Shown piece by piece: positions 5,664 to 21,741 of a DNA stretch of 31,223 bases; position 1 is the first letter of the stretch, and each line of letters starts with the position of its first letter. Source of the stretch: a virus; the IMG/VR virus record IMGVR_UViG_3300025030_000324, positions 1 through 31,223 of that record. One strand, written 5' to 3'. The notes below the pieces were generated by a model. That model saw nothing but the letters and a program-made list of their open reading frames with translations. It was not told the origin of the DNA and did no database searches. Made by a program: the position numbers and the translations under genes.

Positions 5664-5693
5664 CAACATTTTATCATCTGTTGCGAATTTTCT

Positions 5694-18777: not shown

Positions 18778-19133
18778 CAGTAGTACTCCGCCGTAACCGT
18801 CTCTGTCGGCTGCCCACTGGCAATCTGTTTCCGTATCTGCCGCGTTGCCATCTCCTTGGTTGCCAGCCACCCTTCAGCGGGGGGCGAAACGCTGTAGAAG
18901 TCGGCGATCTCGGCGGCGATGAGGGGGATAAGCGAGAGGCTAAAACGGTCGGGAATGTCGGCTTCGTCGCTTGCGGAGTAGGCCCATGAGACCAGCCCGT
19001 CATCGGCAAGGACGGAGTACACGGCGGCGTAGGCGTCAGCGACGTTTTCGAGGTCTTCCGCCGCTACTCCGCTGCTGCGGTCGAACACCCCCAACTTCTG
19101 CATCACCTTCTCTGCCAGTTTCGCTATTACCAT
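18777..19133 (-). CDS. gp4-like tail accessory factor (118 aa)
   Basis: A helical protein starts MVIAKLAEKVMQKLGVF and continues with repeated helix pairs. This is the pattern of the P22 gp4/head-closure family that binds the portal and starts tail assembly. It is somewhat shorter than P22 gp4 (166 aa). GAGG precedes the ATG at 19131-19133. Order gp4-like then gp10-like matches P22. Confidence 0.65.
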
Positions 19134-19269
19134 CGACCACCTCAAAAGTGGGGTTGCTGCTGAGTTTGCGGAAAGCGTGAGGGTCGGTGACTGCCGCCGC
19201 TACGCCCTGCATGAATTCTTGCCCGAAAGTGACCACCGATGCCGATGGTCCGATGTACTTGACGACCAT
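19036..19269 (-). CDS. Small virion-cluster protein (77 aa)
   Basis: The start VVKYIGPSASVV and the later NPTFEVV look like a small phage protein often found between capsid and head-completion genes. The C-terminal 27 residues are basic and lie out of frame over the gp4-like gene (98-base overlap). No start codon lies nearer the strong upstream ribosome site. The ATG is reached only across a hairpin (see 19267-19301). Role unknown. Confidence 0.6.
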   Translation of the reverse strand: MVVKYIGPSASVVTFGQEFMQGVAAAVTDPHAFRKLSSNPTFEVVDGNSETGREGDAEVGGVRPQQRSSGGRPRKRR

Positions 19270-19301
19270 AGAGTTAAGGGGCGTTGCCGCCCCTCCTCCT
19301 T
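19267..19301 (-). promoter_or_regulatory. Hairpin-bridged (split) ribosome binding site
   Basis: In the leftward RNA, AAGGAGG (19295-19301) starts inside the stop codon of the upstream gene but lies 25 bases from the ATG (19267-19269). Between them GGGGCG and CGCCCC pair around GCAA, a GNRA tetraloop, with one extra A-U pair. Folding removes 18 bases and leaves seven between GGAGG and ATG, the usual spacing. No better site precedes this ATG. Confidence 0.6.
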
Positions 19302-19725
19302 ACGCTGATGTGGTGTAGATGGGGGTGATATTGACAGTACCGGCAGCGGCGGTTGCCGCTGCAGTGGTCGCTTTCAGATAAACGATGGTGTCGGCGGTTA
19401 CGGTGACGTGTCCCGCCGCGCCTACCACCCACGTTCCGGCCTTAGCGGTATCGTTGGCAATGCCGGATGCAAACAGGGTCGAACCGACATAGATCGACCA
19501 GACAAGCGCGACGCTGCCGTCAGTGTCAAGATCGTCGGTCTGGAGGATGAAAGCGAGCACGGTCGCACCAAGCGGCACGCGTGCAACGCCGGTGATGTCG
19601 TTGGTTGCCATGTCGGTGGTGCGAAGCTCGACAGAGAAAGGTTGCGCTACCACCGCACCCACGCTTTTGGATGTTAGGAGCGGTGCAGTGTATGTTACGA
19701 GGTCGGTAGTTGTCTCCCCGGCCAT
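19300..19725 (-). CDS. Candidate head decoration protein (141 aa)
   Basis: An Ala/Thr/Val-rich, all-beta sequence with repeated short strands (TVLAFILQTDD, ALVWSIYVGSTLF) and no Cys. It lies just downstream of the major capsid gene, where head decoration or minor capsid proteins are common. AGGAGG precedes the ATG. The assignment rests on composition and position only. Confidence 0.5.
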   Translation of the reverse strand: MAGETTTDLVTYTAPLLTSKSVGAVVAQPFSVELRTTDMATNDITGVARVPLGATVLAFILQTDDLDTDGSVALVWSIYVGSTLFASGIANDTAKAGTWVVGAAGHVTVTADTIVYLKATTAAATAAAGTVNITPIYTTSA

Positions 19726-19816: not shown

Positions 19817-20935
19817 TTACGCCGAGGTGAGTGCCGGGCAGGCAAAGAAGCCGGTAAAGATGCCGTGGTCCTTTTTGGTGGTGGTGTCCACGGTGGTATC
19901 AGTGCCGAACATGAGCTTCTGAATCCCGCGGATCTCCTGCACGGCACAGCCTGCCTTATCGCCATAGTCGAAGTCGTCGGTAATGGTCTTGGTGCGCTGG
20001 GCCACCAGCCATCCTAGAGCCTGCGCTCCGCAGAGGAAAACGGGGGAGACGTCGGCAGAGGTCGCGCCGGAAATGGCAAGGTCGCCGATTTCGGGGATTT
20101 CGCGGATTATCATCCCGTTTGCAATCAGCGAGTCGCCGGTGAACAGGGGATTATCCATGCCGCGCACGCGAGCATCCTTGTTGAAGCCGATGATGGTCGA
20201 GTCTTCGGAGAACCGCTTGAACGCCTTGGATCCGCAGAAGACGGTGTACCACTCCTCGTCACCGTTGACCATCGTCGGGCGGATGGCCGGACTTGCGAGC
20301 TTGGCCAGGGACTTCATAAGGTTCAGGCGGGCGTAAGTCGGGAGGTCGCCGGAATCGTCCACGTTGCCAACTGCAGTCGCGAAGGTCGCGGAGTAGTTGG
20401 CAGTGGATGCCCCGAAAAGAACGCGGTCGGAGTTGGCGGCGCACCATGCGTCCTGCGCGGCGGTGACGGCGGTCGAAGCAGCCTGAAAGATGGTATACAT
20501 TCCCGATTGGTAGTCGCCGCCGACCTGTCCGAGTGCGTTGATGATATCGGTCTTGGTGACGGTGAGAATCCAGTTTTTCAGCAAGACCTTTGCTGCGTTA
20601 CGGAGAGAGATGGCGCTGTATTGCTCGTCGATTTCCGGCACGACAACGCCGTTCCTGACCTTATCGACCGTGACCGCGCAGGAGCGGGAGGTCATCATTT
20701 CCTCTGCGCCGACGAGTGTGGCGGAGCCTCTCTTACCTGCACCGGTAAGCCCGTTTACCAGCGCAAAGGTGTCCGTCTTGCCGGGTTTGAGCGAAAGGGC
20801 TTCTTTCATCTGGATAATGGAGTTTTCATCCTTGCCCATGTACCGCTTGAAGCGGTTGGCGCGGACGTACTCGGTAAAGAACTTGTCATCCCACTGCTGG
20901 ACAGTGAGCCCTGCGGCTACGGCGGTGTTTGCCAT
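19817..20935 (-). CDS. Major capsid protein (N4-gp56/PF13252-like, 372 aa)
   Basis: The sequence matches the N4-gp56 family (Phage_capsid_3/DUF4043), an HK97-fold coat protein. Typical parts are VQQWDDKFFTEYVRANRFKR near the start, then a Gly-rich E-loop-like stretch and the later FCGSKAFKRF and GWLVAQR segments. It forms the icosahedral head around the scaffold encoded just upstream. P22's own coat protein is of another lineage, so this head module is a mosaic with a P22-like portal and tail. AGGAG precedes the ATG. Confidence 0.85.
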   Translation of the reverse strand: MANTAVAAGLTVQQWDDKFFTEYVRANRFKRYMGKDENSIIQMKEALSLKPGKTDTFALVNGLTGAGKRGSATLVGAEEMMTSRSCAVTVDKVRNGVVVPEIDEQYSAISLRNAAKVLLKNWILTVTKTDIINALGQVGGDYQSGMYTIFQAASTAVTAAQDAWCAANSDRVLFGASTANYSATFATAVGNVDDSGDLPTYARLNLMKSLAKLASPAIRPTMVNGDEEWYTVFCGSKAFKRFSEDSTIIGFNKDARVRGMDNPLFTGDSLIANGMIIREIPEIGDLAISGATSADVSPVFLCGAQALGWLVAQRTKTITDDFDYGDKAGCAVQEIRGIQKLMFGTDTTVDTTTKKDHGIFTGFFACPALTSA

Positions 20936-20990: not shown

Positions 20991-21647
20991 TTATTTGAGT
21001 AAGTCGTCAAGCGAGGTAGGCCCGCTCCACGTTTGCGCCGTTGCGCCCCCTGCGCCAGATACCGTCGCCAGTGTGCCCGGGAGTTCTGCGCGCTTCTGAT
21101 GCTCTGCTGCACCCTTGGCCGAGTACTTCGCCTCAAGCTCTGCGGTGATCTTCTCCCGCAGTTTCTGCTCATACGCGGTCGGGTCGCCCATCTCCTGCAG
21201 CTTCTGCTGGTTCGTCGCCGTCTTGTAGGCGAATTCGGCGGGGTTCGCCTGTGCTCTCATTTGCGGGTATAGCGCGGGGTTTTCCTGGACCATCGCCTCG
21301 AAAATGACGAGCTTGTCATCGAAGTCGGCGTACTTGTCGCGGGCAAAGGCTTCGGACATGTCGAGCCTCTGGTTGATTATTTCCTCTCGGAGCTCTCGCC
21401 TGATTTCTTCTTTGTACGGGTCCTCTTCCTGTTTTTGCAACTGCTGTAGCTGCTGCTCGATTTCCTGCCGCTTTCTGCGTTCTGCGAGGAGTGCAGCCTT
21501 AATGCCCTCCATGTCAGGTGCGGGCTTTTCTGCAGGTTGTGCGGGGATCTCAGCGGCGTCCTGAGTTACTTCTGCGCCCGTTTCCTCCACCGTCTCCTGC
21601 GCGGCCACTTCCGGTTCTTCAATTACGGCATCTTCGAGCCAATCCAT
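20991..21647 (-). CDS. Capsid scaffold protein (218 aa)
   Basis: An acidic N-terminal region (about 1-48) precedes a long Gln/Glu/Arg-rich coiled coil (about 50-100) and a helical C-terminal half. The tail is short and ends SLDDLLK. This is the general build of phage scaffolds, and the gene lies just before the coat gene. The ATG at 21645-21647 has GAAGGAG upstream; the in-frame extension to 21731 is Pro-rich and lacks a ribosome site. Confidence 0.75.
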   Translation of the reverse strand: MDWLEDAVIEEPEVAAQETVEETGAEVTQDAAEIPAQPAEKPAPDMEGIKAALLAERRKRQEIEQQLQQLQKQEEDPYKEEIRRELREEIINQRLDMSEAFARDKYADFDDKLVIFEAMVQENPALYPQMRAQANPAEFAYKTATNQQKLQEMGDPTAYEQKLREKITAELEAKYSAKGAAEHQKRAELPGTLATVSGAGGATAQTWSGPTSLDDLLK

Positions 21648-21741
21648 TTGTATCTCCTTCGCGCCCTTTGTGGATGGCGGCTCCCAAGTTATCGCCCGTT
21701 GATTACCCGGCGGCGGTTTTGTGTTACTCAACTATGTTGTT

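Follow-up and report, generated by a model that had tools for sequence, protein, structure and literature searches.

Split ribosome-binding sites, in which a folded hairpin separates the Shine-Dalgarno sequence (SD) from its start codon, have been described in phage and bacterial genes. The phage examples cited in a review of the subject (PMC3014915) are T4 genes 25 and 38. In gene 38, a spacing of 22 nt between SD and AUG is cut to 5 nt by a hairpin (PMC3014915), while in gene 25 a hairpin at an intercistronic junction brings the spacing from 27 to 11 nt (Nivinskas 1999; Malys and Nivinskas 2009, via PMC3014915). The gene 25 site, which was tested by lacZ fusions and DMS probing, is present only in a sub-clade of relatives and is hence derived (PMC3014915). 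In Escherichia coli thrS, the ribosome binds a split site and the folded hairpin is left in place (PMC3936740); this site comprises several large structured modules and an essential 24-nt single-stranded region (PMC3936740).

The site described here lies in a viral DNA of 31,223 nt (IMG/VR record IMGVR_UViG_3300025030_000324, hereafter the window, that is, the whole stretch that was analysed). The minus strand of the window carries a late operon in the order major capsid protein, 141-aa protein, 77-aa protein and 118-122-aa protein. The capsid gene (19817..20935, minus strand) matches the major head protein phrog_334 with an E value of 1e-56. Directly after it comes the 141-aa gene (19300..19725, minus strand), in the position of the cement gene of Pam1 and Pam5; its product shows a weak match to a virion structural protein (phrog_8455, E 0.0015) and is a probable capsid-accessory protein of the decoration or cement type. 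The 77-aa gene (19036..19269, minus strand) encodes a small protein and precedes the head-adaptor gene, the 118-122-aa protein occupying the place of the Pam5 adaptor. No Pfam or PHROG match was found for the 77-aa protein, nor any homolog of it or of the 141-aa protein in the phages collection, nor of the 141-aa protein in genome_contigs. The family profile of the 77-aa protein shows that homologs in about 40 distinct junctions start at the same residue (M-K-x-K-Y-I-G type), and for this reason the ATG at 19267-19269 is most probably the true start; the in-frame codon that could replace it at normal spacing is a non-standard ACG. At its other end the 77-aa ORF overlaps the next gene (ATG at 19133) out of frame by 98 nt (19036-19133, minus strand), and in several relatives the tail of the protein ends in a GRPRKR-type sequence. 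Further upstream, an ORF at 20991-21731 on the minus strand stands between a 124-aa gene and the capsid gene, the scaffold position, with a listed TTG start and a weak SD.

The junction between the 141-aa and 77-aa genes reads, on the minus strand, T-AAGGAGG-A-GGGGCG-GCAA-CGCCCC-TTAACTCT-ATG, or in longer form TAAGGAGGA-GGGGCG-GCAA-CGCCCC-TTAACTCT-ATG. The stop codon TAA of the 141-aa gene (19302-19300) overlaps the SD AAGGAGG (19295..19301). Between the SD and the start codon lies the hairpin (19278..19293, or 19277-19294 with an A-U closing pair), made of the stem strands GGGGCG (19293-19288) and CGCCCC (19283-19278) and the loop GCAA (19287-19284). The linker TTAACTCT (19270..19277), whose CUCU could pair weakly with the GGAG of the SD, leads from the hairpin to the ATG (19269-19267). 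An earlier note on this DNA had proposed that the only strong ribosome site lies 25 bases from the ATG and that the hairpin brings it to seven. Both figures held: the spacing from AAGGAGG to ATG is 25 nt, with no SD-like site in the last 18 nt before the ATG, and 7 nt are left once the hairpin and its A-U closing pair are subtracted. The predicted anti-SD pairing of the 77-aa gene is the strongest of the 27 ORFs checked (-12.6 kcal/mol), with a site starting at -30, the other structural genes in the window that have an SD carrying it mostly at about -11 to -16. Most structural genes among the checked ORFs carry a normally spaced SD; the 77-aa gene is alone among the late genes checked in having a strong SD some 30 nt before its start codon and no SD at the usual distance. 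The isolated hairpin is predicted to fold with -12.6 kcal/mol and a pair probability of about 1.0, and a second AGGAGG at the junction overlaps the stem.

We propose, with a probability of roughly 0.65, that translation of the 77-aa gene begins at a split (accommodated) ribosome-binding site. In this model the 30S subunit would pair with AAGGAGG, at the upstream stop codon, while the GC-rich hairpin stays folded, its two ends side by side, so that the AUG would come to lie about 7-8 nt from the SD. The features of a split site found here are a strong SD at extended distance with none at normal spacing, a stable hairpin in the spacer, and compensatory changes in the stem among relatives; from these we infer that ribosomes use the site by bridging. 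The predicted cost of opening the SD, 0.8-3.0 kcal/mol, is below the predicted anti-SD pairing energy. Terminating ribosomes might help to load the site. The same note had placed the beginning of the site inside the upstream stop codon, which is true of the window, although the exact overlap is not conserved; the stop lies within a few nt of the SD throughout. Since it always adjoins the SD, control of the 77-aa gene by upstream termination is plausible.

Taken by itself, the sequence of the window does not distinguish the hairpin from chance, and we set its statistics aside as support: perfect 6-bp stems with a 4-nt loop number six in the window, fewer than the nine or so of simulated sequence, and the fold of the junction is only mildly better than those of shuffled sequences (z -1.9). 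Rfam covariance models returned no hit up to E 1. It is the relatives that carry the case, and they make it very improbable that a purine-rich stretch and a GC hairpin of a common type have merely come together by accident, as the stem count and the shuffle score would allow, because diverged relatives retain the stem with swapped pairs and replaced loops.

Relatives were collected from IMG/VR by searches with the 77-aa, 141-aa and capsid proteins, plus one DNA pattern. The window and eight contigs (L004, L005, L006, L007, L002, L018, L003 and L038) form a clade in which the SD is 5' of the stem, and not 3' of it, in every member. The junctions of L004-L007 are the same as that of the window, L006 and L007 being alike here; as they are nearly identical to the window at the junction, they were counted with it as one, leaving about five independent sequences in the clade. 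The other junctions are AAGGAGA-GGGGGC-CACGC-GCCCCC-CTTAACTCT-ATG in L002, AAGGAGA-GGGGGC-TTCG-GCCCCC-TTAACTCT-ATG in L018, AAAGGATA-GGGGGGC-TTTAAACG-GCCCCCC-GCATATCACC-ATG in L003 and AAAGGATA-GGGGGGC-TTCGCG-GCCCCCC-GCATATCATT-ATG in L038. Between the window and L002 or L018 two inner pairs of the stem are flipped in orientation and the loops differ, and in L003 and L038 the stem is longer, so that GGGGCG/CGCCCC, GGGGGC/GCCCCC and GGGGGGC/GCCCCCC are found in these few independent sequences. The linker TTAACTCT is identical in the window, L002 and L018 and is replaced in L003 and L038. In the capsid and accessory genes, identity with the window at four-fold sites amounts to only 31-54%, close to saturation, and the retention of stem and SD therefore reflects more than recent ancestry. 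Across the clade, then, the hairpin and the start codon are conserved and the SD is kept on the 5' side. The earlier note had asked for a conserved stem with a variable loop, which is what the comparison gave, stem pairs being swapped and loops changed while the SD stays in place; its GNRA loop did not prove essential, as the loops of the clade include UUCG and others.

The minimum free energy fold of the window also pairs GGAG of the SD with the CUCU that precedes the AUG, leaving the SD unpaired with a probability of 0.35; the earlier note had not taken this pairing into account. This raises a second reading, which we consider unlikely, in which the extended hairpin masks the SD and keeps the gene off until a ribosome terminating upstream opens it, that is, a switch by translational coupling. 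The identity of the linker in three of the sequences agrees with it, as do the constant nearness of the stop codon and the diverged SD of L003, GGAUA, which could pair with UAUC. However, the lower pairing is both weak, opening at a cost of 0.8-3.0 kcal/mol across the clade, and uneven, and the SD does not lie in a stable conserved structure, its probability of being unpaired varying from 0.35 to 0.61, while the upper hairpin forms with a probability near 1.0 in all clade members except L002 (0.65). Besides, masking alone leaves the absence of a normally spaced SD unexplained. We read the modelled GGAG-CUCU pairing as weak tuning and not as a lock, although a coupling device is also conceivable; partial sequestration of the SD, translational coupling and attenuation are each possible.

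More distant homologs of the 77-aa gene bear on the origin of the split site. A further 19 homolog junctions with a hairpin (among them L094, L074, L076, L113, L102, L090 and L042) have the hairpin after the stop of the upstream gene and the SD on its 3' side, at normal spacing; L008 and L087 have a normal SD without a hairpin. The two positions of the SD thus behave as exclusive alternatives. The earlier note had regarded relatives with normal spacing as evidence against bridging; such homologs exist, but only outside the clade, and they therefore date the arrangement and do not refute it. Judging from these comparisons, the split site is a derived trait restricted to a single clade, and the ancestral layout was likely a terminator-like hairpin after the capsid genes, followed on its 3' side by a normally spaced SD. 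An SD would have formed on the 5' side of this hairpin and the one on the 3' side would have been lost, and such a takeover of an older terminator-like hairpin is, in our own analysis, the most likely origin.

The same homologs suggest a third reading, which we hold to be improbable, less so than chance but more than masking: the hairpin would be retained as a 3'-end or attenuator element downstream of the highly expressed capsid genes, with an SD that is incidental and a 77-aa gene translated by reinitiation alone. In L094, L114 and L112, outgroups to the clade, terminator-like hairpins with T-rich tails stand at the same place, and L126 has hairpin and gene without any SD. In the window clade, however, the T-tract is gone (2-3 T in 9), the GC stem being followed by TTAACTCT or GCATATCACC instead of the T-rich tract of an intrinsic terminator, and a terminator scan did not report the hairpin; all clade members, moreover, retain the SD despite near-saturated synonymous change. 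L126 (2880-3000) and L071 (4556-4630) are close relatives with a hairpin before the 77-aa homolog in both and an SD beside it in L071 only. L071 was consequently not counted as an independent split site, and L126, which keeps hairpin and gene, indicates that such a gene may be translated without an SD. L014 was likewise rejected as a further case: on its reverse strand a hairpin followed by CCCCCTTAACTCTATG precedes a different phage gene (ATG at 5693), and this sequence after the hairpin is shared, but a normal SD and ATG stand just downstream.

The layout of SD, hairpin and ATG was also sought elsewhere in IMG/VR with the pattern AAGGAGNGGGGSN{3,8}SCCCCN{6,10}ATG, which itself demands the SD, the stem and the ATG; at least 120 stretches fit it. 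A match was taken as a gene junction if the ATG opened an ORF of at least 45 aa and had no SD nearby, and if the SD of the pattern adjoined the end of an upstream ORF of at least 60 codons. Among the matches listed, 65 of 119 had this arrangement, amounting to at least 47 distinct gene junctions of roughly 20 families by our own grouping, which include tail tubular protein A (phrog_394), a Cas4-domain exonuclease (phrog_1990), DNA polymerase (phrog_17) and a gene after a major head protein (phrog_1328). The sequences L127-L245 show the layout at many unrelated phage gene junctions, with a group before tail tubular protein A. At the same loci, 2.9% of random ATGs had the surroundings of a junction, and AAGGAG placed 20 to 30 nt before an ATG without the hairpin gave 5 junctions in 80, against the 65 in 119 among the matches listed (Fisher p 1.5e-13). 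The commonest loop at the junctions listed was UUCG (11 of 47), with GNRA frequent, and UUCG was absent from those listed for 38 non-junction sequences. The base immediately flanking the fixed G run on its outer side can pair with the one opposite in 25 of 33 junction cases among the matches listed (12.8 expected), but the non-junction matches listed show a similar excess (13 of 20, 6.8 expected), so that outer pairing is not specific to junctions. Hairpins are a general mark of gene ends, and some of the enrichment seen here could thus be due to terminators. Homologs of tail tubular protein A, of the Cas4-type exonuclease and of the phrog_3982 protein in named phages, read independently of the pattern, gave no clean split site; most of them either lack a hairpin or combine one with a normal SD. 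A search with AAGGAGNGGGGCTTCGGCCCC returned a single bacterial match, followed by a T run and then ATG, and chromosomes therefore add little. Tentatively, and at somewhat less than even odds, these patterns suggest that split sites of this form may be common and repeatedly evolved in phage operons, the SD passing from the 3' to the 5' side of a hairpin already present at a gene end, often with a UUCG or GNRA loop, and one hairpin serving both the end of a gene and the start of the next.

This apparent recurrence is the most interesting part of the analysis and deserves a controlled survey. Should this layout prove common among phages, gene finders and models of expression that seek an SD only at 5-10 nt would misjudge such genes, and the many natural variants would allow a direct test of the size of folded insert that the ribosome tolerates between SD and AUG. 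A natural before-and-after comparison is provided by the homologs, in which the SD stands on one side or the other of the same hairpin.

By its sequence, the site of the 77-aa gene is of the same kind as those of T4 genes 25 and 38. As in gene 25, an extended distance between SD and AUG would be closed by a hairpin at a gene junction, in a sub-clade only and as a derived trait; unlike gene 25, the site belongs to an unrelated phage and gene, is predicted from sequence, and has a hairpin that appears to descend from a terminator-like hairpin after the capsid genes. As in gene 38, the hairpin would shorten the spacing between SD and start, again in an unrelated phage and gene. With E. coli thrS the bridging model shares a folded hairpin that is left in place, but where thrS has several large structured modules, the site described here would consist of an SD-hairpin-AUG spacer within a phage operon.
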